Assembly: GCA_024225895.1 (NCBI GenBank)
Contig: JAAEMC010001144.1
Coordinates: 1 to 10,561 of the forward strand
Direction: 5' to 3'
DNA length: 10,561 bases
DNA from: Desulfobacteraceae bacterium
GTDB taxonomy: Bacteria; Desulfobacterota; Desulfobacteria; Desulfobacterales; Desulfobacteraceae
A model generated the notes under the pieces. It did no database searches. It was not told the origin of the DNA and saw only the letters and a program-made list of their open reading frames with translations. Of the stretch, positions 1 to 10,493 are shown one piece after another. The position numbers and the translations under genes were made by a program. Numbering within the stretch: position 1 is the stretch's first letter; every line of letters starts with the position of its first letter.

Positions 1-717
1 CTTGATCCCGAAGATGTTAAAAAAGCAGTTACTCCCAAAACCAAGGCCATTATCTTGAACACACCGTCAAATCCCACAGGTGCAGTTTTTGACAAAGAAA
101 GCCTAGAGCAGATTGCAGTAATTTGTAAAGAACATAAGATTATGGTCATTTCCGACGAACCCTATGAACACATCCTGTTTGACGGGAATGAACATGTTTC
201 CATTGGGTCTCTTGACGGTATGAAGGATTTGACAGTTTCCATTTATACGCTTTCCAAATCCTACGCTATGACAGGGTGGAGGGTCGGTTATGTGGTGGCA
301 AACAAAGCCATCATCGCTGAAATGGAAAAGCTGATGGAGCATATGGTGTCCGGGGTGACAGCCGTTGCCCAGCGGGCTGCCCTTGCAGCCATTACCGGTT
401 CCCAGAATTGTGTCACACAGATGCTTGAGCGGTATGCCAAACGAAGAGAATTGATGTATGACGGACTCAACAATATTAAAGGTATTTCCTGCATCAAACC
501 GGAATCTACCTTTTATGCATTTCCCAATATCTCTTCCTTTGGGATGTCATCCTGGGATTTTGCAAAGTATATGGTCAATGAGTATAAACTGGCTCTTTTA
601 CCGGGTTCCATATTTGGAGAAAATGGAGAAGGGTTCTTAAGGCTATCCTTTGCAACAAGCTCCAAAAATATTGAGACAGCACTTGAAAAGCTGGAAAAAG
701 GTATTGCCGGTATATAG
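1..717 (+). CDS. Class I/II PLP-dependent aminotransferase, 3' part (5' end outside window)
   Basis: The frame is open from the first base of the window, so this is the C-terminal ~238 residues of a protein that would normally be about 380-400 residues long. Fold-type I aminotransferase landmarks appear in order: the NTPSNPTGAV segment (substrate and PLP contacts), SDEPYEHILFDG (Asp to the pyridine nitrogen, Tyr to the PLP oxygen), TLSKSYAMTGWRVGY (the Schiff-base lysine follows LS), and near the C-terminus RLSFATS, whose Arg normally binds the substrate alpha-carboxylate. It is therefore AspC-like and should be catalytically complete at this end. The next gene starts 81 bp downstream on the same strand. 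Beside an ectoine hydrolase it could act on 2,4-diaminobutyrate or supply general aspartate/glutamate transamination, but substrate is not readable from sequence. The known ectoine-pathway transaminase DoeD is of a different class (class III). Confidence 0.93.
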   Translation, partial: LDPEDVKKAVTPKTKAIILNTPSNPTGAVFDKESLEQIAVICKEHKIMVISDEPYEHILFDGNEHVSIGSLDGMKDLTVSIYTLSKSYAMTGWRVGYVVANKAIIAEMEKLMEHMVSGVTAVAQRAALAAITGSQNCVTQMLERYAKRRELMYDGLNNIKGISCIKPESTFYAFPNISSFGMSSWDFAKYMVNEYKLALLPGSIFGENGEGFLRLSFATSSKNIETALEKLEKGIAGI

Positions 718-733
718 TTCATTAAAATAAAAG

Positions 734-772
734 CCGGGATCGAAAACTATAAAGCGGTTTTCTCGACCCTGG
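734..772 (+). other. Imperfect hairpin between aminotransferase and ectoine hydrolase genes
   Basis: The arms GGG-(A)-TCG-AAAAC (736-747) and GTTTT-(CT)-CGA-CCC (757-769) pair around a 9-base loop. CC/GG at 734-735 and 771-772 extend the stem after a one-base bulge. No T-run follows on the plus strand, so it is not a standard intrinsic terminator there. It may be an RNA-processing or partial-termination element, or an inverted repeat used by a regulator. On the minus strand a T-rich stretch does follow, but no minus-strand gene ends here. Confidence 0.4.
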
Positions 773-788
773 TATCCCATAACTGATC

Positions 789-794
789 AGGAGG
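789..794 (+). promoter_or_regulatory. Ribosome binding site of ectoine hydrolase gene
   Basis: AGGAGG, a full Shine-Dalgarno match, lies four bases before the ATG at 799 and fixes that start. Confidence 0.85.
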
Positions 795-798
795 AATA

Positions 799-1974
799 AT
801 GGCCTTATTTAGTAGAATTGAATTTCTTGAGCGGATTGCCAAAACCAAGGCATCCATGGCAAAAAGAGAAATTGAAGTTCTTGTCGTGTGTGATCCTGCC
901 AATATGAATTATCTTACAGGGTATGACGGTTGGTCTTTCTACGTGCCCCAGGCAGTTCTGGTGATTGACGATCAGGAAGAACCCATCTGGATTGGCCGGG
1001 GAATGGATACCAATGGTGCCAGACATACGGCTTTTATCCGACCGGAAAACATGATCGGGTACCCGGATGATTATGTCCAGTCTGATGTCAAACATCCCAT
1101 GAATTTTATTGCAGATATTATCAAAGCAAAAGGATGGGCCCAAAAAAGCGTAGGTGTTGAAACCGATGCCTATTATTATACTGCAAGAAGCGACCATGAA
1201 CTGAAAAAAAGCCTTGGAAGAGATACTCTTTTAGATGGCAACCTGCTTGTGAACTGGGTTCGGCTTGTAAAATCAGATGCCGAGATTAATATGATGAAAC
1301 AGGCCGGTAAAATTGCTGAAAATGTCATGTCAACAGCTCTTTCAAAACTCGCCCCCGGCGTTCGGGAATGTGATGCAGTAGCTGATGTTTATAAGGCCCA
1401 GGTCACAGGCACAAAGGATTTTGGTGGTGATTATCCATCCATTGTTCCCATGATGCCCACTGGCGAGAAAACCAGTGCACCGCACTTGACATGGACGGAT
1501 GAACCCTATCAAGCAGGACAACCTGTCAACTTAGAACTGGCTGCCTGTCGGCATCGTTATCATTGCCCCATCGCGAGAACCGCATTTATCGGTAACAATC
1601 CCCCGGAAAAACTCAAAGAACTTGCTGATATTACCGTTGAAGGATTGAATCTGACTCTGGATGCCATTAGACCCGGCCTTAAGGCTGAAGATGTAGAGCA
1701 AGTCTGGCGGAATCATATTGCTAAAAAAGGATTTGAGAAGGAATCCCGCATCGGGTATCCGATTGGACTGAATTATCCCCCGGACTGGGGCGAGCATACT
1801 GCCAGCCTTCGGCCTGGCGATAAAACTATTTTGAAACCCAATATGACTTTTCACATGATACTGGGAATGTGGATGGACAATTACGGTTTTGAATGTTCAG
1901 AGTCCTTCCGGGTTACAAAAAACGGTGCAAAGACTTTTGCCCGGTTTGAACGAAAACTTTTTGTTATTAAATAA
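799..1974 (+). CDS. doeA: Ectoine hydrolase, creatinase-like M24 family (DoeA/EutD)
   Basis: The 391-residue protein has the two-domain layout of the creatinase/prolidase superfamily: an N-terminal domain (about 1-155) and a pita-bread domain (about 160-385). It resembles DoeA/EutD as I recall it almost throughout: NMNYLTGYDGWSFYV (35-49), IGRGMDTNGARHTA (65-78), the GYPDDYVQS segment, GGDYPSIVP (209-217), SAPHLTW (226-232), RYHCPIARTAF (253-263) and IGYPIGLNYPPDWGE (318-332). Where metal-dependent M24 peptidases carry Asp ligands, this protein has the ELAACRHRYHCP segment. It should therefore be a metal-free, creatinase-type C-N hydrolase rather than an Xaa-Pro dipeptidase. The reaction is cytoplasmic opening of the ectoine ring to N-acetyl-2,4-diaminobutyrate. 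Length equals the family norm. The M20 amidohydrolase gene follows after 15 bp, and a TeaABC-like transporter lies downstream. Confidence 0.88.
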   Translation: MALFSRIEFLERIAKTKASMAKREIEVLVVCDPANMNYLTGYDGWSFYVPQAVLVIDDQEEPIWIGRGMDTNGARHTAFIRPENMIGYPDDYVQSDVKHPMNFIADIIKAKGWAQKSVGVETDAYYYTARSDHELKKSLGRDTLLDGNLLVNWVRLVKSDAEINMMKQAGKIAENVMSTALSKLAPGVRECDAVADVYKAQVTGTKDFGGDYPSIVPMMPTGEKTSAPHLTWTDEPYQAGQPVNLELAACRHRYHCPIARTAFIGNNPPEKLKELADITVEGLNLTLDAIRPGLKAEDVEQVWRNHIAKKGFEKESRIGYPIGLNYPPDWGEHTASLRPGDKTILKPNMTFHMILGMWMDNYGFECSESFRVTKNGAKTFARFERKLFVIK

Positions 1975-1989
1975 AAAGCGGGGCCTCTT

Positions 1990-3180
1990 ATGGACTATAT
2001 ACAAAAAAGAATTCAGGAACTCACATATGAAGTCATTGAACTGAGGCGTAATTTTCATATGCACCCTGAATTAGGATTTCAGGAATTTGAGACTGCCAAT
2101 ATAATCAAAGATTATCTTGAAAATCTCGGGTTTGGGACCATTCGAATGGCTGAAACAGGGGTTGTTGCAATCCTTGACAGCGGTAAGCCAGGCCCTGTTC
2201 TAATGCTTAGAGCAGACATGGATGCCCTGCCGGTAACCGAGGCCAATGACGTTGAATACAAGTCAAAAAATGATGGCGTTATGCATGCCTGCGGCCATGA
2301 CTCCCACATGGCAATGCTTCTGGTTGCGGCAAAAGTTCTCAAAGAGAACCAGGACTTGCTTTTTGGTAAGATAAAATTTGTATTCCAGCCGGATGAAGAG
2401 ATCGCAGGTGCTGTTAAAATGGTAGCTGAAGGTGTTCTTAAATCCCCTAAAGTGGATGCGGTGATGGGTATTCATATCTGGAGCCTGCTTCCATCAGGCA
2501 GGGTTTCCATCACACCCGGTGTAGTCATGGGTGGCATGGATGTTTTCAAAATGAGAGTTATAGGCAAAGGCGGGCACACAGGTTATCCCCATGAGGCGAT
2601 TGATACTGTGATTGCGGCTGCCAATATTATCCAGACGGTTCAGACCATCCAGACTCGGGAAATGGATGCTCAAAAACCTGTTGTCATTATGTTCGGCAAA
2701 CTTATGGCCGGTAAAAAATCAAATATTATACCTGAAGAGGTATATTTAGAAGGGTCCATCCGTTTTCTCCACGATGCAGCACCGGATGATGAAGATAACC
2801 CGACCAAACGATTTATCCGGATCAGCCACGCCATCAGTCTGGCTCATCAATGTACCTGCGAAATAATCATTGAACATGAAAATATTCCCCTGGTCAATGA
2901 TGTAAAGATGGCTGCTTTTGCCCAGAAGACCGCTGCCCAGGTGTTTGGAACCCCGGGTGCAATTGATCAGGGCCGATATATAACCAGTGAGGATTTCAGT
3001 GAGTACACATCCCGTGTGCCAGGTGTTTTCATGTTTCTGGGATGTGCGAATGCCCAGAAGAAAACAGACATTGCTTTGCATAATCCCCACTTTAATATCG
3101 ATGAAGACGTTTTAGTGAAAGGAGTGGAGTTGCATGTAAAAGGAGCTCTGAACTTTTTAAGCAGTTCAGGTAAAAAATAG
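1990..3180 (+). CDS. M20D-family amidohydrolase, candidate N-acetyl-diaminobutyrate deacetylase
   Basis: The 396-residue protein is a typical M20D metallo-amidohydrolase (the family of hippurate hydrolase, IAA-amino-acid hydrolase and N-acetyl-diaminopimelate deacetylase). Motifs seen: HMHPELGFQE near the N-terminus, MLRADMDALPVTE (72-84), HACGHDSHMAML with the family Cys101 and His103, FQPDEE with Glu136/Glu137, GIHIW with His162, the dimerisation-domain GKGGHTGYPHEAID (192-205), and ALHNPHFNID (362-371) supplying the last His. These match a di-metal site. There is no signal peptide, so it is cytoplasmic. It sits 15 bp after the ectoine hydrolase gene with only a weak purine-rich ribosome site, which suggests translation from the same mRNA. 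By position it replaces DoeB/EutE, the AstE-like enzyme that deacetylates N-alpha-acetyl-diaminobutyrate. Family assignment is firm; the substrate is inferred from context. Confidence 0.9.
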   Translation: MDYIQKRIQELTYEVIELRRNFHMHPELGFQEFETANIIKDYLENLGFGTIRMAETGVVAILDSGKPGPVLMLRADMDALPVTEANDVEYKSKNDGVMHACGHDSHMAMLLVAAKVLKENQDLLFGKIKFVFQPDEEIAGAVKMVAEGVLKSPKVDAVMGIHIWSLLPSGRVSITPGVVMGGMDVFKMRVIGKGGHTGYPHEAIDTVIAAANIIQTVQTIQTREMDAQKPVVIMFGKLMAGKKSNIIPEEVYLEGSIRFLHDAAPDDEDNPTKRFIRISHAISLAHQCTCEIIIEHENIPLVNDVKMAAFAQKTAAQVFGTPGAIDQGRYITSEDFSEYTSRVPGVFMFLGCANAQKKTDIALHNPHFNIDEDVLVKGVELHVKGALNFLSSSGKK

Positions 3181-3220
3181 TTTCTGATCTATTTAATATT
3201 TTATTTAAATCAATAATTAT

Positions 3221-3226
3221 AAGGAG
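3221..3226 (+). promoter_or_regulatory. Ribosome binding site of TRAP binding-protein gene
   Basis: AAGGAG is placed six bases before the ATG at 3233, inside a 52-bp AT-rich gap (3181-3232). The gap could hold a weak internal promoter, but I see no clear -35/-10 pair. Confidence 0.75.
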
Positions 3227-3232
3227 AATCAC

Positions 3233-4294
3233 ATGGAAACAACGTTTAAAAAAATGACCGCTTTATGTATTGCCGTTATCTTTTGTCTGCTTTCGACCCA
3301 CGCCGGAGCAGCCAATTACACAGGGAAACCTATCAAGGCAAAACTGGCATCTGAAGAAATAGAAGGTGATTTCATGACCGTCTGGGCCAGAAATTTTTCA
3401 GATCATATGAAAACCTGGTCAGATAATAAAATTGATATCAATGTTTATCCTTACGGAACCCTTGGTGCTACCGGAGATATTAATGAATTGGCCCAGATGG
3501 GTGTTGTTCAATATGTATTCTCTGATTATGCCTGGATCTCTTCCTTTGTTCCCCAGGGTCAGGTTTTAGCGTTGAACTATCTTTTTCCCACTGAAAAAGT
3601 ACCTGAAGTGATTGACTGGATTGTTCGAAACGGTGAGTTTTTTCCGCTTATGGAAAAAGCCTTTAGAAAAAATGATCTCGTCCCTCTTTCCATCATGTTT
3701 GAAGGATGGCAGTGGATGACCACGAAAAGCGAAGTCAAGTCTCTTGAAGATATAAAAGGACTTAAACTCAGGGTTATGTCATCAAAACTATTGGTAGAAG
3801 ATTATAAAGCCTATGGTGCTGCGCCGACTCCCATGAGTTATGGTGAAGTATACTCAGGACTGCAGATGGGATTAATCGATGGCCAGGTCAACCCCTTGTT
3901 TGCCATCAACAGCATGAAATTTTATGAAGTTCAAAATTATTGCACCCAGCTGAAAAGTGAACCTTTTCTTGGCATTCCCACGGTTAATAAGAAATTTTTT
4001 GATTCTCTTCCTAAAAATGTTCAGGACGAAATGCGTAAATTCTGGATCGATTCCATTATTCCTGCCGGAAGCTGGATCACACAAAAAAATGCCGTTGACA
4101 AGGAAAAAATGTTGAAAGCCAAGCCAGAACTTAAATTCAATGTTTTGGATGATGCAACCATTTCCACGTTCAAAGCCGCGGCCCAGACCGTTTATCCTAA
4201 ATTTACTGAGATTGGCGGAGAGGGTTCACAAGAAATTCTGGATGCATTGCTTTCCGATATTGAGAACGCTAAAAAAGCCTTAAATGTAAAATAA
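3233..4294 (+). CDS. teaA: TRAP transporter periplasmic binding protein, TeaA/UehA-like (ectoine)
   Basis: This is a 353-residue DctP-family protein. It has a signal peptide: basic start, hydrophobic stretch 9-21, likely cleavage after AGA near residue 26. Set against TeaA of Halomonas recalled from memory, it aligns along nearly its whole length. Landmarks are SEEIEGD (40-46), YGTLGATGDI (74-83), the Arg180 of KLRVMSS, PTPMSYGEVYSGLQMGLIDGQ (198-218) followed by Asn220, and YEV at 231. The polar ligand residues I recall from TeaA (Glu9, Arg144, Asn184 in mature numbering) correspond to Glu42, Arg180 and Asn220. The aromatic-cage positions are partly changed: Phe66 to about Trp101, Trp167 to Tyr203, Trp188 to Ala224, Phe209 kept as Phe245. 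It should capture ectoine or hydroxyectoine in the periplasm and hand it to the two membrane subunits encoded next. The exact ligand is inference. Confidence 0.88.
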   Translation: METTFKKMTALCIAVIFCLLSTHAGAANYTGKPIKAKLASEEIEGDFMTVWARNFSDHMKTWSDNKIDINVYPYGTLGATGDINELAQMGVVQYVFSDYAWISSFVPQGQVLALNYLFPTEKVPEVIDWIVRNGEFFPLMEKAFRKNDLVPLSIMFEGWQWMTTKSEVKSLEDIKGLKLRVMSSKLLVEDYKAYGAAPTPMSYGEVYSGLQMGLIDGQVNPLFAINSMKFYEVQNYCTQLKSEPFLGIPTVNKKFFDSLPKNVQDEMRKFWIDSIIPAGSWITQKNAVDKEKMLKAKPELKFNVLDDATISTFKAAAQTVYPKFTEIGGEGSQEILDALLSDIENAKKALNVK

Positions 4295-4301
4295 TCTTAA
4301 A

Positions 4302-4347
4302 ACAGAACAGCCCTGCCATAATTATGCCGGGGCTGTTCTGTCCTTTT
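4302..4347 (+). terminator. Intercistronic hairpin with short T-run (attenuator) after the binding-protein gene
   Basis: ACAGAACAGCCC (4302-4313) and GGGCTGTTCTGT (4330-4341) form a perfect 12-bp stem. Pairing continues inward through T-G, G-C and, past a C:C mismatch, CAT/ATG closing on an AATT loop. CCTTTTAT follows at once. The stem is strong but the T-run is short, so partial termination or 3'-end protection of the upstream mRNA is likely. That fits the usual need for much more binding protein than membrane subunits. Confidence 0.75.
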
Positions 4348-4363
4348 ATATCAGAGGCTTATT

Positions 4364-4942
4364 ATGAATGAAAAAAATAAGAATTATACCTCTTTAAGTT
4401 TTTTTCAAAAATTTAATGACTACACAGGGCGCGTGGTTAACGGTGTGGAAGTCTCCATATTGGTTTTCTGTGTAGCAGCCCTGGGCATTCTGCTCATTGC
4501 CAATGTATTTGCACGCACTTTTTTTGAAAGTATCTACTTTGCCGAAGAAATCTCTAAATTTTTAGTGATGCTCATAACCTTCACCGGTGTAAGTTATGGC
4601 GTAAGAAAGGCAAGACATATCAGGATGGGTGCGTTTTTGGATGCCATGCCGCCTAAAATGGAGAAAATCTTTATTATCATCATTTCCCTGATCTCTGCCA
4701 TTGTCATGGGAATCATGTGCTGGGCATCGTATGAGTATCTCATCAATGCCATGTCCAAAGGCCATGTAACGGCAGCCTTGCGTGTCCCGAAATGGACATT
4801 TTATGTAATCATGCCCATCGGGTTCGGCCTTGCCTGTATCCAGTATGTCAGGACGATAATTAAAAATCTTACGGAAAAAGATCCCTGGCAGTCGCCGGAT
4901 CAGCAAAGCGAATACGAAGATGAACAGATAGGGGGTGTTTAA
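4364..4942 (+). CDS. teaB: TRAP transporter small membrane subunit (DctQ family, TeaB-like)
   Basis: The 192-residue protein has the four membrane segments usual for DctQ subunits: about 28-50, 62-80, 101-122 and 145-165. Between the second and third lies a positively charged stretch (VRKARHIRM, 80-88), typical of the family and suited to a cytoplasmic loop. The C-terminus is short, acidic and soluble. The gene starts 69 bp after the binding-protein gene, beyond the hairpin, with a modest ribosome site (AGAGG at 4353-4357). It ends three bases before the large-subunit gene. Its role is to pair with the large subunit in the inner membrane. Sequence alone gives the family; the ectoine link comes from its neighbours. 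Confidence 0.9.
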   Translation: MNEKNKNYTSLSFFQKFNDYTGRVVNGVEVSILVFCVAALGILLIANVFARTFFESIYFAEEISKFLVMLITFTGVSYGVRKARHIRMGAFLDAMPPKMEKIFIIIISLISAIVMGIMCWASYEYLINAMSKGHVTAALRVPKWTFYVIMPIGFGLACIQYVRTIIKNLTEKDPWQSPDQQSEYEDEQIGGV

Positions 4943-4945
4943 GTT

Positions 4946-6235
4946 ATGGCGCTATTCGGATTTAGTTTACTTATCATGTTGTTGTTCGGGTTTCCGTTCA
5001 TGGTGACGCTCCTGGGATCACTCATCCTCTATATTTTTGTTTATATGCCGGATTTTGCTCCTACAATGATCATAACCATGGTCCAGCAGGTCATTACAGG
5101 GGTTACACCTCCGGCTCTTGTATGTGTACCGCTGTTTATCCTGTCGGCCAGTATCATTACATCGGGAGAGTCGGCAGGCCGGTTGATCCGGATGATTAAA
5201 GTTTTTGTCGGTCATCTGCCGGGAGGCCTTCCTATCACCACCAATGCTGCCTGCACCCTTTTCGGTGCGGTTTCCGGTTCCACACAGGCCACCGTGGCTG
5301 CCATTGGTGGTACCATGCGGCCTATGCTTCTGGATGCAGGATATAAAAGCTCTTTCACCCTCGGGCTGATTATTAATTCCAGTGACATCGCTTTTTTAAT
5401 CCCGCCCAGTATCGGATTCATCGTATACGGGGTTGCCACAAGCACCTCAATCGGTATGCTTTTTCTGGCCGGTATTATTCCGGGACTCATGATCCTGGTG
5501 ATGTTTTCCATTTACTGTTATGTGTACTCCAGGATTAAGAAGGTCGGGACCCTGCCCAAGGCAAGCAGTTCTGAACGCTTGGCAGCGATCAAAGACGGGT
5601 TGCCGGTCATGGGATTCCCATTGATTATTGTGGGCGGGATCTATACGGGAATTTTCAGTCCCACGGAAGCTGCCGCAGCTGCGGTATTATACTCCCTGAT
5701 CCTGGAAGTAATTATTTATAAAAGTTTAACATTTGATATCATTGTTGATGCATTCCTGCAGACCGGGGTTATTACCGGGGTTGTTTTTATTCTGGTGGGT
5801 GCAGGTCAGGCTTTTTCATTCTTAATCGGGTTTTTGCAGCTTCCAGATCAGTTTTTACCCCCGCTTTTCGGGACCGATCCATCTATGCTCAAAGTCATGG
5901 GTATCGTTGTTGTTGTCTACTTTGTTGCCTGTATGTTTGTGGACCCTATTGTGGCTATTTTTGTCTTAAGCCCTATATTCCAGCCCTATGTTGTCGCGGC
6001 AGGCGTAAATCCTATCCTGCTGGGAACCCTTGTCACCCTTCAGGCGGCCATCGGATCAGCAACCCCGCCGTTTGGCTGTGATATTTTTACGGCCCAGCTG
6101 ATCTTCAGACGGCCATACCTTGAAGTCATAGGCCATGCACTGCCATTTTTGCTGATTTTGATTCTGGCTACCATTATCTTGATTGCATTTCCCCAGATTG
6201 CACTGTTTCTGCCGAACATGGCATTGGGAGGATAG
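4946..6235 (+). CDS. teaC: TRAP transporter large membrane subunit (DctM family, TeaC-like)
   Basis: The 429-residue, very hydrophobic protein has the normal DctM length and about a dozen membrane segments. Signature stretches seen: PLFILSASIITSGESAGRLI (62-81), GAVSGSTQATVAAIGGTMRP (107-126), LIPPSIGFIVYG (151-162), the FSPTEAAAAAVLYSL segment and, near the C-terminus, GSATPPFGCDIF. This subunit forms the sodium-coupled translocation path. Its ATG lies three bases after the stop of the small-subunit gene, with GGGGGTG (4931-4937) as the ribosome site inside that gene, so the two are probably translationally coupled. Confidence 0.95.
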   Translation: MALFGFSLLIMLLFGFPFMVTLLGSLILYIFVYMPDFAPTMIITMVQQVITGVTPPALVCVPLFILSASIITSGESAGRLIRMIKVFVGHLPGGLPITTNAACTLFGAVSGSTQATVAAIGGTMRPMLLDAGYKSSFTLGLIINSSDIAFLIPPSIGFIVYGVATSTSIGMLFLAGIIPGLMILVMFSIYCYVYSRIKKVGTLPKASSSERLAAIKDGLPVMGFPLIIVGGIYTGIFSPTEAAAAAVLYSLILEVIIYKSLTFDIIVDAFLQTGVITGVVFILVGAGQAFSFLIGFLQLPDQFLPPLFGTDPSMLKVMGIVVVVYFVACMFVDPIVAIFVLSPIFQPYVVAAGVNPILLGTLVTLQAAIGSATPPFGCDIFTAQLIFRRPYLEVIGHALPFLLILILATIILIAFPQIALFLPNMALGG

Positions 6236-6254
6236 AAAATAAAAGGAAAAGACC

Positions 6255-6692
6255 ATGAAATATGACAACGTACTTGTGCTGATTGATTTTTCAAAGTATT
6301 CGGATGACGCATTGGAAGCTGCCATAGACTTTGCAAAAAAATATAATTCGCACTTAACCCTTTTGAATGTGATCCGGGATACAACGAATTTGACCTATGT
6401 CCTTTCGAATTCAGAGTATCACAACCTGGAAAAAAAATTTAAAACCCTGTCGATGGAGCGGTTTGATAAACTTGAAGTCGACATACCGGAACTAAAAGAG
6501 ATGGGTTACGAACGTAAAATTCGTAGCGGAACTCCATACATCAGTTGTCTTTATGAGATTGAGAACGGTAACTATGATTTGGTGTTTGCAGGCTCCCACG
6601 GCAAAACAAATTTAAAAAAGGCGCTCATGGGAAGCACTGCGGAAAAAGTGCTTCGCAGGTCCCCGATTTCTGTTTTTGTGACACGGAAATAA
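6255..6692 (+). CDS. teaD: Universal stress protein, ATP-binding, TeaD-like
   Basis: The 145-residue single-domain UspA protein starts with the usual beta strand (NVLVLIDFSKYSDDALEAA). It carries the ATP-binding signature G-2X-G-9X-G-S at Gly113, Gly116, Gly126 and Ser127, so it belongs to the nucleotide-binding subgroup. The gene begins 19 bp after the large TRAP subunit gene with an AAAGGAAAAG ribosome site. In Halomonas the equivalent gene, teaD, follows teaABC, and its product lowers ectoine uptake through the transporter. The same position here suggests the same job. The family is certain; the regulatory role is by analogy. Confidence 0.9.
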   Translation: MKYDNVLVLIDFSKYSDDALEAAIDFAKKYNSHLTLLNVIRDTTNLTYVLSNSEYHNLEKKFKTLSMERFDKLEVDIPELKEMGYERKIRSGTPYISCLYEIENGNYDLVFAGSHGKTNLKKALMGSTAEKVLRRSPISVFVTRK

Positions 6693-6934
6693 AACCAGTA
6701 CATAAGGGATGAAGAATGAGACAAAAAGGAACGGATAGATAGATAAATATGTCAGATATATCATTAAGAGAGATTTTTCAGGCGAAAAAAAGGATACCCC
6801 GGTTCTCCTAATCGTAAATTCCTTGCCTTAAACAATATTAAAGATGGTATTATGCGCAAGGATGAAAAAAATGCCAAACTGACCCAATTAGAAATCGAGC
6901 CCGGGGCAGTTCTATTCCGACCCGCCACAGTTAA
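6693..6934. other. Gene-free junction between the convergent blocks
   Basis: This 242-bp stretch separates the end of the plus-strand transporter block from the end of the minus-strand isochorismatase gene. It holds the possible dehydratase remnant, three GATA units (6734-6745) and an open but featureless plus-strand frame from about 6768 that runs on antisense into the isochorismatase gene. I find no convincing intrinsic terminator for either block. Confidence 0.6.
6749..6831 (+). pseudogene. Possible remnant of a threonine-dehydratase-like (EutB-family) gene start
   Basis: An ATG at 6749 opens a frame reading MSDISLREIFQAKKRI. This is the kind of N-terminus found in serine/threonine dehydratases (an SLREIFxAxxRI-type first helix). 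The frame stops at 6811. In another frame, just past an A-rich run (6785-6791), the bases read KDTPVLLIVNSLP before a stop at 6829, loosely like the family's TPL..S.SLS segment. Together they suggest a decayed 5' end with a frameshift or small deletion. EutB, a dehydratase of this family, lies near usp and the TRAP genes in some hydroxyectoine clusters, so the position makes sense. The evidence is short and could be chance. Confidence 0.3.
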
Positions 6935-7471
6935 CTATCTTTTAAAAATATTTTTTGATGGCACGGCTGTAATTTTTGGGCCAAAACTTTTGATGTTCGG
7001 CAAAGTTGCATTGTGGTGCTCCCGGATCATTTTTGCAGTTGCATGTTCTTTGTCATGGGTGGTGTGGGCATCTGAAACAAGCTGGACTGAATAGCCCAAT
7101 GCCGCGGCACGGCGGGTGGTCGTATCCACACAGAATTCTGAAGCATAACCGCAGATAATCAGGTTTTTTACACTATTCGATTCCAGGATTTCTTTCAGAT
7201 CCGTTCTAAGAAATGAATCAGGTGTGGTTTTCCGTACAAAGAGATCCGTATCTTTCACCACTAATCCGGCCTGCAGTTTCCAGCCATCGCTGTCATATGC
7301 GAGTGGGCCGGATTCTTGCTCATGCTGAATGAAAATAACAGGGATACCGGCATTTCTGGCCTGACCGGTCACCTGGTTTATTTTTTTCACGGTTTTATCT
7401 GCTTCAAAGGGCCTTGGATTTTCATCAAAAAGAGCCTGCTGGACATCAATGACAAGAACTGCTGTGGTCAT
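6935..7471 (-). CDS. Isochorismatase-family cysteine hydrolase
   Basis: Starting at the ATG at 7471, the protein has 178 residues. That start is preferred because AAGGAGA (complement of 7480-7486) lies nine bases upstream. A longer frame to 7507 adds only a basic, non-conserved MKKGFPKRRRKR piece. The family triad is visible: Asp9 in VLVIDVQQALFD, Lys81 in VRKTTPDSF and Cys114 in ICGYASEFCVDTT. This class includes nicotinamidases, isochorismatases and N-carbamoyl amide hydrolases, and most members split small amides. The residues seen do not pick one substrate. It is cytoplasmic and soluble, and is the last gene of the minus-strand block, about 100 bp after the transglutaminase-like gene, so it may have its own promoter. 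Confidence 0.88.
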   Translation of the reverse strand: MTTAVLVIDVQQALFDENPRPFEADKTVKKINQVTGQARNAGIPVIFIQHEQESGPLAYDSDGWKLQAGLVVKDTDLFVRKTTPDSFLRTDLKEILESNSVKNLIICGYASEFCVDTTTRRAAALGYSVQLVSDAHTTHDKEHATAKMIREHHNATLPNIKSFGPKITAVPSKNIFKR

Positions 7472-7533
7472 GCGTTTTCTTCTCCTTTTTGGAAATCCCT
7501 TCTTCAAGAGGCTGGAACTAATTAAAGGGTTTT

Positions 7534-7539
7534 ATTATA
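7534..7539 (-). promoter_or_regulatory. Candidate -10 element for the isochorismatase gene
   Basis: Read on the minus strand this is a perfect TATAAT within the AT-rich 102-bp gap before the gene, about 60 bases upstream of its start codon. No good -35 box is found at 16-18 bases, so this is only a candidate. Confidence 0.3.
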
Positions 7540-7573
7540 GATTAATTATTATTTACAGATGCCGGATCTTCTA

Positions 7574-8344
7574 TCATTTATTGTTCCGGATGGCATCTAT
7601 TTTTTTGTTGGTGCTTTTGCTGATAAATCTAAAGAGTATCCGGACAATGAAGTTGAGTTTGTTAATGGCATTTTCAGATGCATAAAAAGCGCCGATATCA
7701 TCAAATACCCCATGATCGGCAGTGGTAAGATCTTTAACTGCCCCATCATTGACAAATTGGCAAAATGCGTCTGTTTTCCCATCCCATTGAGAAATTCCAT
7801 TTATGTGGGCACCAAATCCGTATGCTTTTTTCTCTGCTGCCAGTCTTGCTTGTGCCTGCTTTGCCAGCTTCAGGTCCAGGACATAGCTGTCAATTTTAAT
7901 CCATTGGCCGTCAATGAGAACTTGGGCAAAGGAATGGTCCACAAAAGGGGTTCCCGGATCAATCACGCCTTCCAGAATCAAGGCGTTGATATTGACAAAA
8001 TGATGTTTGGCAGGAATTCTTTGGGCCCGCATCAGTGCAATCAGCAAAGTGGCTTTTGTATTGCAATACCCCATGCCGGATTTCAGTACATCCGAGGCTT
8101 TTTGATTGTAAAATTTGGATGTAAACCCAAAAGGGATTTTGTCCCTGACAAAATCATGGATTTTCACGGCCTTTTCCCGGTCTGTTTTGGCTCCGGCCGT
8201 TACCTTTTTAGCCCTCTCAACAATGGCGGGGTGATCTGAATCAATGTAAGGGGTTGCCGCTAAAAAATCATTTTTAGCCTCAACTGAAAACGGCAATAGA
8301 AAAAAAAGAATAAAAAAGATGAATAAACACCTGAAATGTGACAT
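7574..8344 (-). CDS. Secreted transglutaminase-like domain protein
   Basis: The 256-residue protein has a clear signal peptide: a very hydrophobic stretch (about 6-20) ending in VEA, with likely cleavage near residue 23. A transglutaminase-like core (about 35-160) follows. The papain-like triad is visible as Cys94 in GMGYCNTKATLLIALMRAQ, His137 in FVDHSFAQVLIDGQWIKID, and Asp152 in the same stretch. KIHDFVRDKIPFG (61-73) is the usual lead-in helix. The product should work in the periplasm or be exported. Bacterial members are mostly thought to be proteases, amidases or cross-linkers, and the substrate is unknown. AGGAGG (complement of 8351-8356), six bases before the ATG, fixes the start. The methyltransferase gene ends 20 bp upstream, so the two are very likely co-transcribed. 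Confidence 0.88.
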   Translation of the reverse strand: MSHFRCLFIFFILFFLLPFSVEAKNDFLAATPYIDSDHPAIVERAKKVTAGAKTDREKAVKIHDFVRDKIPFGFTSKFYNQKASDVLKSGMGYCNTKATLLIALMRAQRIPAKHHFVNINALILEGVIDPGTPFVDHSFAQVLIDGQWIKIDSYVLDLKLAKQAQARLAAEKKAYGFGAHINGISQWDGKTDAFCQFVNDGAVKDLTTADHGVFDDIGAFYASENAINKLNFIVRILFRFISKSTNKKIDAIRNNK

Positions 8345-8364
8345 ATCAATCCTCCTGTTATGGA

Positions 8365-9012
8365 TTAACGCACAAGGGGTTTTTGGGCAAATACATAGGC
8401 CCTGCGGGTCTCAACCTCCACCCCGGGATAGGGTTCTCTTTCAATGGTCTCTATAATATTAAATTCATTTTTTGTCAGTGTATTTTCAATAAAATCCGTA
8501 TTGAAATACATGAAATCAACATCGACTTTTTTATCGAGAAATTCATCGATGTGAATGGTGTCATCGCCTATGTGGTACGTAAATAAAAAAATGCCGCCCG
8601 GCTGCAATACACGAAATATTTCACCAAAGGCAGCATCCACTTGTTCTTTTGTAAAGTGGACAATGGCATAAAAAGCCACCACACCGGCAATGGCATTATT
8701 TTCAAAAGTAAGTTTGAGCATATTTCCTGTTTGGAAATGAATGTCCGGGTATAATTTTTTTGCCTGTTCCAATACTTTTGGGGACAGGTCCATCCCGCAA
8801 ATATCCATGCCAAGATCGGTTAAATATTTTGTTGTCTGGCCAGGTCCGCATCCAAAATCCCAAACCGGTGTTTTACTGCCGATGTCCCTGGTAAACCGCT
8901 TGAGAATTTCCCGGTCCATGGGTTTTTTATCATGCTCCTGGAAGAATGTTTCCGCATATTCTTTGGCCACGGTATTGTAAGTGGTTTCGATCTTTTTTAT
9001 TTCCTGTCCCAT
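8365..9012 (-). CDS. Class I SAM-dependent methyltransferase
   Basis: The 215-residue protein has a Rossmann-like methyltransferase core. Motif I is VWDFGCGPGQT (50-60), the acidic end of strand 2 is GMDLSP (Asp75), GNM (96-98) is motif III, and LQPGGIFLFTYH (136-147) is the post-core motif. It belongs to the broad Methyltransf_11/25-type group acting on small molecules or lipids; the acceptor cannot be told. A weak ribosome site (AAGGA) lies upstream of the ATG. It follows the small membrane-protein gene after 51 bp and precedes the transglutaminase-like gene by 20 bp. Confidence 0.9.
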   Translation of the reverse strand: MGQEIKKIETTYNTVAKEYAETFFQEHDKKPMDREILKRFTRDIGSKTPVWDFGCGPGQTTKYLTDLGMDICGMDLSPKVLEQAKKLYPDIHFQTGNMLKLTFENNAIAGVVAFYAIVHFTKEQVDAAFGEIFRVLQPGGIFLFTYHIGDDTIHIDEFLDKKVDVDFMYFNTDFIENTLTKNEFNIIETIEREPYPGVEVETRRAYVFAQKPLVR

Positions 9013-9063
9013 ATCTATTTATCCTTCTTGTCAACAAATGCCCGTTATGATTGCCAGGCTCGA

Positions 9064-9495
9064 TTATTCTTTTTTATTGGAAAGAATGTGATTGATAACT
9101 TTATATACACCAAAAAATCCCACAGCCAACACAGCCATACCAACAATGAAAACCGTATATCCGTGGGCCGCACCTTTTACGCCTGTAAAATAGCCCAAAG
9201 GTTCTCTTGCACCCATAAATGCACACCAGGCGCCCAGTGGGATCATCAGGATAATGAAACCTGCCAAAACCGCCAACCGCTTGACAAGAGACAGGTTGTC
9301 CAGGTTTCCATTGTCGGGCTCGTAATTTTTTTGTATCAGGTATCTCAATATAAAAAAGGCAATGACCAGCGTAGCCGGTGTCAGTATCAGATCTAAAATC
9401 GTGATTGGTATCCCATACTTCTGACGGATCAACTCGATGACTGCTGCAATTGCCAGAAAGGTCAGTATAAATATTACATTTTGGTATCGGTTCAT
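9064..9495 (-). CDS. Small four-helix membrane protein, function unknown
   Basis: The 143-residue hydrophobic protein has four likely membrane segments, about 5-22, 28-50, 72-95 and 110-133. A polar loop (QKNYEPDNGNLDNLSLVKR) separates the second and third, and a conserved-looking GAREPLGYFTGVKGAAHGY stretch separates the third and fourth. The C-terminus is short and lysine-rich. I do not recognise the family. AGGAAA lies just before the ATG. It sits between the alpha/beta hydrolase and methyltransferase genes on the same strand. Confidence 0.8.
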   Translation of the reverse strand: MNRYQNVIFILTFLAIAAVIELIRQKYGIPITILDLILTPATLVIAFFILRYLIQKNYEPDNGNLDNLSLVKRLAVLAGFIILMIPLGAWCAFMGAREPLGYFTGVKGAAHGYTVFIVGMAVLAVGFFGVYKVINHILSNKKE

Positions 9496-9536
9496 TTTTC
9501 CTGGTGTTTATGAATGAGTCTTTGCTGAAGGGTCAT
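9492..9536 (-). CDS. Possible leader or decayed frame ending on the membrane-protein start
   Basis: A 14-codon frame (MTLQQRLIHKHQEK) ends in a TGA that overlaps the ATG of the downstream membrane-protein gene as ATGA, the classical coupling overlap. The same frame is open further upstream to about 9575 (reading LRQYENLSEDD before the Met) but lacks a good start codon. It could be a tiny coupling peptide, the worn C-terminus of a lost gene, or chance. Confidence 0.2.
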   Translation of the reverse strand: MTLQQRLIHKHQEK

Positions 9537-9587
9537 ATCATCTTCAGACAGATTTTCATACTGCCGGAGGTCCCTAAGACATTAAGC

Positions 9588-10493
9588 CTATAGCAACATA
9601 TCATTATCAAATAAAAGATCTAAAGTAGCCATCCAGTCCATGATCATCGAGACCATGAAGTCCGGCGTTTTTGCCCAGGAGAAATGGTATTTGTTCTTGA
9701 GATTGTGGTCGCCGGGAGACAAATGGAAATGGGTGACATTGGCATTTTTCATCTTTTTGTATAAATGCCGGACCGCGCCGGATGGTGCAAAAAAATCATC
9801 CTCAAATGATATGGAAACAACGGGCAGGTTCAATTGGCTCAACAATAAATCATAATCCAGGGGGCTGTTTAAGATTTCATATCTGCCTGTCCGGCCCTGG
9901 CGCGACCAGTCCCTGATGACATTTTTTGCTTCCAGGCCGCCAAAGCCAAACTTATGCCCCGGCAAATACCCCAACCACTGTGACACAAGAAAGGCAAAAT
10001 TTGTTCCAGCAAGGACTTTGAAGCAATCCGGGAAACTATAGCCTTTATAATAAACTGAGTTGGCTGTAATAAGAATGAGGCCCGAAAGCTTGTATTCCTT
10101 TTGATGGCTCAGGTAAAGCGAGCTCAACTGGCCGCCCAGGCTGTGTCCGAGTATGAATATTTTATTTTCAAAAAATTTTGTTTTCACGGCTTTTATGACG
10201 GCAGGCCAGTCATAATGGATCATTTCATAGTAGCCGAAATTATGCTTTTTGGATGCCCGGACCGATGAAGTGCCAATCCCCCGAAGATCCGTTGTAACGA
10301 CATTAAATCCTTTTGCAGTAAGGCTGCGGGCAAATAAATCATAAAACCTTGCATTCACCCCCATTGCAGGAAAGCAGATGATGACAGGGGCGGATGAACC
10401 TTCCTGCGGTTTGAAAACGGTTGCGGATGATGTTATGCCGTCTTCGGCTTGAATATCGATGGTTGCCTGATCAATTGTTTTGTCTTTAGGCAT
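9588..10493 (-). CDS. Alpha/beta-fold hydrolase (serine hydrolase)
   Basis: The 301-residue protein has the alpha/beta-hydrolase fold. A short N-terminal beta part is followed by PVIICFPAMGVNARFYD (36-52, oxyanion-loop region), TTDLRGIGTSS (67-77), the nucleophile elbow GHSLGG with Ser118, an acid in SFEDDFFAP (Asp232 or Asp233), and a late His in NKYHFSWAK (His270; His263 is an alternative). A helical lid lies between roughly 145 and 210. There is no signal peptide, so it is likely a cytoplasmic esterase, lipase-like or amide hydrolase of unknown substrate. An AGAGGA site (complement of 10503-10508) precedes the ATG. It is the first complete gene of the minus-strand block; the next gene starts 92 bp downstream. 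Confidence 0.9.
   Translation of the reverse strand: MPKDKTIDQATIDIQAEDGITSSATVFKPQEGSSAPVIICFPAMGVNARFYDLFARSLTAKGFNVVTTDLRGIGTSSVRASKKHNFGYYEMIHYDWPAVIKAVKTKFFENKIFILGHSLGGQLSSLYLSHQKEYKLSGLILITANSVYYKGYSFPDCFKVLAGTNFAFLVSQWLGYLPGHKFGFGGLEAKNVIRDWSRQGRTGRYEILNSPLDYDLLLSQLNLPVVSISFEDDFFAPSGAVRHLYKKMKNANVTHFHLSPGDHNLKNKYHFSWAKTPDFMVSMIMDWMATLDLLFDNDMLL

Follow-up and report, generated by a model that had tools for sequence, protein, structure and literature searches.

What does a hydrolase gene of the ectoine type, followed by transporter genes, do in a Desulfobacteraceae bacterium? The window, that is, the whole stretch of 10,561 nucleotides analysed here (contig JAAEMC010001144.1 of the metagenome-assembled genome (MAG) GCA_024225895.1), carries at positions 1-6692 of the plus strand a string of seven genes separated by gaps of 3 to 81 bases, including genes for a hydrolase of the M24 fold (hereafter DoeA1), an M20 amidohydrolase, a tripartite ATP-independent periplasmic (TRAP) transporter and a universal stress protein (Usp). 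We predict from sequence comparisons, with a probability of roughly 0.78, that this locus is an ectoine scavenging and breakdown string. Ectoine uptake and breakdown, already proposed in a preliminary description of this DNA, is the best reading because the M24 protein groups with DoeA/EutD, clusters in relatives include EutB and EutC homologs as well as a second DoeA, and the substrate-binding protein (SBP) of the transporter is nearest to TeaA and UehA. The open reading frames (ORFs), together with the Pfam and NCBIfam matches, which agree on the families, confirm the gene order given in that description, with all seven genes in one direction and the aminotransferase foremost:

1-717, plus strand: class I aminotransferase (AAT), C-terminal 238 amino acids, the contig starting inside the gene (Pfam Aminotran_1_2, 183 bits)
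799-1974, plus strand: predicted DoeA/EutD-type ectoine hydrolase, M24 fold (TIGR02993, PDB matches, tree, residues)
1990-3180, plus strand: M20 amidohydrolase, proposed N-acetyl-diaminobutyrate deacetylase replacing DoeB/EutE (TIGR01891)
3233-4294, plus strand: TRAP SBP, type A of two types alternating at this slot (PDB matches UehA and TeaA)
4364-4942, plus strand: TRAP small permease DctQ (PF04290, 105 bits)
4946-6235, plus strand: TRAP large permease DctM (PF06808, 320 bits)
6255-6692, plus strand: generic Usp of the TRAP cluster (PF00582, 86 bits)
6743-6796, plus strand: 5' stub of eutB, about 18 codons, break point of the cluster (blastn and tblastn)
6935-10493, minus strand: isochorismatase, transglutaminase-like protein, methyltransferase, 143-amino-acid ORF and alpha/beta hydrolase (family matches except for the 143-amino-acid ORF)

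The hydrolase, the amidohydrolase and the transporter

The M24 protein scores best by far with the ectoine hydrolase model TIGR02993 (479 bits, with the runner-up model at 199), and its matches among PDB sequences comprise DoeA of Halomonas elongata at 377 bits (45% identity), the best prolidase at 88 bits and creatinase at 36 bits. In a tree of 46 rows, the window protein pairs with that of locus L004 within an 11-row clade of Desulfobacterota DoeA1 proteins (96/98). This clade is nested in a group of 41 rows (92/97, short of the star mark and drawn as an open fork) that also contains DoeA/EutD proteins of Bacillota, haloarchaea, alphaproteobacteria, S. meliloti and H. elongata. The distant M24 rows stand apart, on long stems that the tree tool flags with a warning. 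The DoeA/EutD-like identity put forward in the preliminary description thus stands after the tree placement suggested there, with the protein far from the prolidases; for creatinase, the comparison was limited to the PDB score. Across 40 rows, 48 of the 391 positions of the window protein are invariant, including G41, D43, G44, S46, F47, Y48, H229, E246, P328, W330, G331, E332 and E368. Glu 246 and Pro 257 align with Asp residues of a Thermomicrobium prolidase-type row, that is, the Asp pair of metal-dependent M24 enzymes is not present; the corresponding Asp residues bind metal in M24 peptidases, and the Glu of DoeA forms a covalent intermediate. Given its grouping with DoeA/EutD, we predict that the M24 protein is an ectoine hydrolase of this type.

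A second DoeA in the same MAG was considered and rejected: neither of the two other M24 matches hits the DoeA of the window at E 1e-8, and the tree places the full-length one among the distant rows. In another genome of the family (97% complete; G027:C1:1465930-1474757, on one contig), only fragments of DoeA were found (residues 332-390 at 86%, 34-245 at 46% and 3-41 at 49%); the cluster would seem to have decayed there.

The amidohydrolase gene of the preliminary description is confirmed as a member of the M20 family (Pfam; TIGR01891, 352 bits, above the cut-off of 154), and, as the deacetylase candidate of the window, it does not reach the DoeB/EutE model TIGR02994. Because it adjoins DoeA1 and EutE was not found, we propose that it replaces EutE. 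In 36 of the 37 Desulfobacterota-type loci that extend at least 2.5 kb past DoeA1, an M20 match is found in the first 5 kb downstream; the EutE model yielded no matches in the window's MAG, in a search with a weak control (a match in one genome only, below the cut-off). On a Shinella plasmid (L103:5203-8347), genes for EutA, a DoeA-like M24 protein (47% identical to that of the window) and an amidohydrolase are consecutive, and the annotation of this stretch includes no EutE, so that the same swap may also have occurred in an alphaproteobacterium.

The top-ranking PDB matches of the SBP are 3fxb (UehA; 176 bits) and 3gyy and 2vpn (TeaA; 158-160 bits), of which 3gyy is a structure that we take to be TeaA. 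The ligand site of TeaA presumably consists of E9, F66, R144, W167, N184, W188 and F209; E9, R144, N184 and F209 are conserved in the window SBP, and F66 and W167 are replaced by W and Y, respectively, both still aromatic. Passages of the literature identify 3fxb as UehA and 2vpn as TeaA (PMC5924519) and describe ectoine-type binding sites as composed of an Arg and aromatic side chains (PMC2871039, PMC6344544). Thus, the nearest solved relatives of the window SBP are ectoine binders, and the carboxylate Arg and the aromatic box are present, with another TRAP binder, 4pfi, close behind.

Among the related loci described below, two SBP types alternate at this slot: type A, as in the window, in 18 and type B in 7 of the 25 loci with at least 8.5 kb of downstream sequence (the type A label of L036 and L045 is based on a match of only 38-39%). 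Desulfospira joergensenii (L011) and others have the different, type B TRAP set; the L011 SBP scores 304 bits with TeaA and 288 bits with UehA, and the five type B SBPs tested are 42-46% identical to TeaA/UehA. Two unlike SBPs at one slot, each nearest to ectoine binders, suggest a single substrate. The label 'TeaABC-like' of the preliminary description therefore holds at the family level, with UehA and TeaA as the best PDB matches, and fails at closer range, where identity is low and 4pfi is near.

The Usp, 78% identical to the product of the gene in the same place of locus L009, was taken in the preliminary description to be TeaD-like, which is not borne out: its best PDB match is a generic Usp, and TeaD, for which a solved structure presumably exists, is absent from the 8 matches at E 0.001.

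Related clusters and the break in eutB

We examined 45 of the 79 loci found (L004-L048), in which DoeA is 63-92% identical to that of the window; their labels name Desulfobacterota or deltaproteobacterial lineages, apart from L039, labelled 'bacterium', and L024, from a proteobacterial symbiont of a worm. Neighbors were counted as tblastn matches of at least 50 bits within 9.5 kb on either side of DoeA1. The fullest locus, L009, has the order IclR, PanB, ORF316, AAT, DoeA1, M20, TRAP, Usp, EutB, DoeA2, racemase-like protein and EutC. Upstream of DoeA1, 28 loci with at least 4.2 kb of sequence include IclR in 25, ORF316 in 25 and PanB in 22 cases; downstream, the 25 loci with at least 8.5 kb include M20 in all 25, the racemase-like protein in 24, EutB in 12, DoeA2 in 12, EutC in 8 and a match to the RidA query in 4. 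The Eut models are the best for the EutB and EutC homologs, below the eut-specific NCBIfam cut-offs (347 of 413 and 366 of 472 bits, respectively), and the EutC homolog exceeds the cut-off of the cyclodeaminase model PRK08291. The presence at the same locus of EutB and EutC homologs, of a second DoeA and, in some genomes, of an SBP near TeaA/UehA makes ectoine the likely substrate.

The slot directly before DoeA1, assessed in the 35 loci whose upstream sequence reaches 1.45 kb or more, is occupied by an AAT in 22 and by a glutamate dehydrogenase (GDH)-type enzyme in 10, never by both. The remaining 3 (L035, L041 and L044) have neither, although L044 shows a distant 31% AAT match that counts only under a looser criterion (AAT 23). 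The dehydrogenase scores best with glutamate dehydrogenase models, below their cut-offs, and is present in all four loci with a RidA-query match; both it and RidA were assigned with Pfam and NCBIfam. Strict mutual exclusion of EutC and RidA was withdrawn as L021 encodes an EutC homolog along with another sort of YjgF/RidA-family protein.

The cluster had been called compact, a design that is not supported: the string of the window corresponds to the leading portion of a longer cluster and is broken off in eutB. Positions 2-6239 are collinear with L004 at 88%, and the window aminotransferase is 93% identical to the full-length AAT of that locus, in which the usp gene is mostly lost. Window positions 6643-6795 match L004 14444-14596 at 81% in blastn, spanning the eutB start, and homology ends there; in tblastn, EutB residues 1-18 align to 6743-6796 at 78%, with an in-frame stop soon after. 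The eutB start in both the window and L004 implies that the ancestor had eutB here and that the rest was lost in the lineage, or the contig, of the window. At this copy, all of eutB but the stub, the second doeA and the eutC of relatives are missing. The break at 6796 may be a real deletion or a contig misjoin; no repeats were found at the break, and GC content shows no step. The MAG is 81% complete, and copies of the lost genes may lie elsewhere. Beyond the break, the minus-strand genes with family matches are unrelated to the ectoine string, and four of the five, compared with the other loci collected, gave no matches.

ORF316, a protein with no accepted Pfam or NCBIfam family, follows DoeA1 in its distribution. 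When at least 70% identity is required, all 7 relatives that have DoeA1 also have ORF316, against 1 of the 50 that lack DoeA1 (G006, 70% complete), and G007 has a relative at 39%; the hypergeometric probability of this co-occurrence is 3e-8 if shared descent is ignored. It was not found in the window's MAG (the query matches 9 of 58 genomes), where the DoeA1 contig ends before the place of ORF316. A sequence search of the PDB with ORF316 was empty, and a pyridoxal phosphate-dependent decarboxylase model is touched by 8 of 15 ORF316 members at E values up to 5 (the best being 0.0002). The predicted structure is a TIM barrel with a mean predicted local distance difference test (pLDDT) score of 71. 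Assignment of a function from the fold was rejected because the 50 listed matches fall within 2 Z units, mixing aldolases, CutC, RuBisCO and methylenetetrahydrofolate reductase.

At 43 positions, the 20 cluster PanBs compared have a common residue not shared by the PanE-linked PanB found in the same MAG. On another contig of the window's MAG, C734 (L093:25-2141), a second PanB gene, whose product is 65% identical to the cluster PanB and has 40 of the 43 residues, is followed by a gene for a 418-amino-acid protein without a Pfam or NCBIfam match. This protein is not convincingly akin to ORF316 (hhalign probability 7%); the pairing of PanB with uncharacterized proteins may nevertheless recur. 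The C734 PanB was rejected as the missing upstream piece of the window cluster given that a different protein comes after it.

The possible fate of diaminobutyrate

By kinship and site residues, the TRAP system would import ectoine. The M24 hydrolase, judging by its grouping with DoeA and its conserved residues, would then open the ring to yield N-acetyl-2,4-diaminobutyrate, from which the M20 protein, in place of EutE, would release acetate and diaminobutyrate. The class I aminotransferase would next take an amino group, probably the alpha one, although this step is less secure; close relatives would use eutB, the second doeA and eutC next.

For this second half of the pathway, the textbook route is quite possible, if somewhat short of an even chance: after the same uptake and hydrolysis, a class III transaminase encoded elsewhere would transaminate diaminobutyrate at the gamma position, yielding aspartate semialdehyde and then aspartate, with the AAT or GDH-type enzyme of the cluster merely recycling glutamate or 2-oxoglutarate and with PanB and ORF316 otherwise engaged. 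The window's MAG has 12 class III aminotransferase matches above the cut-off, and the similarity of the dehydrogenase to glutamate dehydrogenases, albeit below cut-offs, is compatible with glutamate recycling. However, no DoeD or DoeC is among the labelled genes of the clusters (not every ORF was scanned), the mutual exclusion of AAT and GDH-type enzymes is not needed for a plain glutamate cycle, and ORF316 tracks DoeA1.

The amino group that class I aminotransferases and GDH-type enzymes usually attack is the alpha one, which points to 4-amino-2-oxobutanoate as the product instead of aspartate semialdehyde; RidA hydrolyses imino acids, an activity that would suit a comparable product in the hydroxyectoine arm. 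PanB usually transfers a one-carbon (C1) unit from methylene-tetrahydrofolate onto a 2-oxo acid. We propose, as a conjecture that is unlikely as it stands, that Desulfobacterota replaced the aspartate-forming half of ectoine catabolism with a C1-yielding one. Under this proposal, the AAT or GDH-type enzyme would remove the alpha-amino group of diaminobutyrate, and a PanB-type enzyme working in reverse with tetrahydrofolate, perhaps aided by ORF316, would convert the resulting 4-amino-2-oxobutanoate to pyruvate, methylene-tetrahydrofolate and ammonia, products that would feed the Wood-Ljungdahl route. EutB, together with EutC or a RidA-type protein, would form the hydroxyectoine arm, joining at or near the same oxo acid. 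Engineered PanB reportedly provides a precedent in E. coli. Nothing direct on PanB acting on 4-hydroxy-2-oxobutanoate, or on a PanB route, was found among the open-licence literature listed; a passage of PMC8879981 names an aldolase and aminotransferases, not PanB.

Several observations speak against the C1 route and, in part, for the textbook one: PanB is absent from 6 of the 28 loci with enough upstream reach, it is not adjacent to ORF316 in L021, L022, L023 and L046, a cystathionine-gamma-synthase-family protein stands in its stead upstream in L041, and, of the upstream part, the AAT alone is on the contig of the window.

Two further gene contexts were observed. Cystathionine-gamma-synthase-family proteins are encoded in the ectoine clusters of a Desulfuromonas MAG (L041:360-1556) and a Priestia plasmid (L096:10228-11427), hinting at another possible fate of diaminobutyrate. 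In a Clostridia MAG, the genes for DoeA and M20 are flanked by serine-hydroxymethyltransferase-family genes (L054:7369-8598 and 11788-12225, the second ending at the contig edge), so that another tetrahydrofolate-linked C1 enzyme family is found beside DoeA.

Other readings, known systems and the host

With respect to the locus as a whole, it is improbable, in our estimate, that the substrate is another cyclic amidine or an acylated amino acid, with DoeA1, M20 and the type A TRAP being paralogues of shifted specificity. Such a shift would be compatible with several findings that weigh against ectoine. The M24 protein stays below the curated TIGR02993 cut-off of 613 bits, and is accordingly claimed as DoeA-type and not as a certified DoeA; its identity to the H. 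elongata enzyme is 45%, and the tree places 2 of the other 12 DoeA1 proteins, those of L045 and L048, outside the 11-row clade. The M20 protein reaches 297 bits with the DoeB2 model NF038260, short of the cut-off of 550, with CpsA ahead at 362. The window SBP is 35% identical to UehA and 33% to TeaA, short of the orthologue-level likeness of the L011 SBP (44-45%), 4pfi, a TRAP binder without a named ligand, is next at 154 bits, and the position of TeaA W188 is occupied by Ala. The window contains no EnuR, EutE, DoeC or class III transaminase. The conserved racemase-like neighbor (L009:15862-16593 and the same gene elsewhere) is Asp/Glu-racemase-like, above the PRK07475 cut-off, and was rejected as EutA (E 0.007 and 0.013 against the annotated EutA of L094 and L103), which makes the ectoine reading somewhat weaker and the other-substrate one somewhat stronger; it was not found in the window's MAG, in a search without a control. 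No enzyme assay for the Desulfobacterota branch was found in the literature, and experimental validation is confined to a few Proteobacteria according to a passage of PMC13188858. Finally, in the part of Schwibbert 2011 available (PMC3187862), low-similarity DoeA homologs outside Proteobacteria had already been seen, forming a branch of their own and not accompanied by other ectoine genes. Against a different substrate stand the EutB and EutC homologs, the type B SBPs in the slot of some relatives and the conserved DoeA signature residues.

It is very improbable that uptake serves chiefly salt protection, with the hydrolase only tuning the ectoine pool: a passage of PMC5924519 reports that H. 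elongata TeaABC is osmoregulated, and a usp gene adjoins the TRAP genes, but the transporter and the hydrolase are in one gene string, the Usp is generic, and ectC was not found in the window's MAG, in a search whose control was silent too.

This cluster type is already in print and is not new as a main claim; the novelty initially attached to an ectoine cluster in such a host does not survive. The accessible portions of Boas Lichty et al. (April 2026; PMC13188858) report EutD homologs from additional Thermodesulfobacteriota, encoded in runs of 9-13 genes that usually include two copies of eutD and that lack eutE and ssd; Desulfospira joergensenii appears in the Fig. 1 legend. The window resembles these clusters in phylum (and, through Desulfospira, in family), in having EutD and TRAP genes in one direction, and in the lack of eutE and ssd; unlike them, it has a single EutD and an eutB stub with nothing of the cluster after it, and its TRAP is of another type than that of Desulfospira. 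The same portions leave the AAT/GDH slot and the upstream PanB and ORF316 unexplained, and, as far as the available parts of these sources extend, the truncation, the alternation of two transporters, the mutual exclusion of the deaminating enzymes and the linkage of ORF316 were not found in print. No other reports of these Desulfobacterota clusters were among the open-licence literature matches listed; excerpts of related work mention one deltaproteobacterium, Desulfovibrio bastinii (2018 review, PMC5924519), doeA counts in estuary sediment metagenomes (PMC6848030) and Ehu-type transporter genes in marine deltaproteobacteria (PMC8318568).

Like the TRAP-usp-EutD ectoine cluster in the section available of PMC5924519, the window has all three elements in one string; unlike that cluster, it has M20 for EutE, a class I for an acetylornithine-type transaminase, and no EnuR, AsnC or Ssd. 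With doeABX-doeCD/teaABC of H. elongata, it shares the DoeA-type hydrolase (45% identical) and a related TRAP SBP, whereas in H. elongata the transporter and the hydrolase lie apart (same source, in part), and the window is without DoeB, DoeC and DoeD, its Usp not being near TeaD. Among Bacillota clusters, that of the Priestia plasmid (L096) has a DoeA homolog at 58%, M20 for EutE, and EutB with a cyclodeaminase as in the relatives of the window; unlike the window, it encodes a PucR regulator, the cystathionine-gamma-synthase-family protein, homoserine and aldehyde dehydrogenases and a major facilitator superfamily transporter.

The preliminary description further supposed an anaerobic, probably sulfate-reducing host, which is supported by the lineage and not by this genome itself. 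A search of 57 other relatives found DoeA1 at 70% or more in 7, each of which belongs to the 34 genomes of the same family. G009 (C1:1645744), also of this family, is Desulfospira joergensenii because its DoeA1 coordinate is the same as in L011 (contig range 1636744-1655916). The dsrA gene is above the cut-off in 32 of 39 family genomes, a set that counts the window's MAG, itself not among the 32; in this MAG, aprA, looked for in this genome only, was not found either.

The conserved extra genes (PanB, ORF316 and AAT or GDH) amount to a concrete prediction of the fate of the carbon, and cultivated Desulfospira joergensenii, which has the full cluster (L011), makes it directly testable. If the ectoine reading is correct, ectoine, a common marine salt protectant, would be a source of both carbon and nitrogen for sulfate reducers in anoxic sediment, a role such as glycine betaine plays for other anaerobes.

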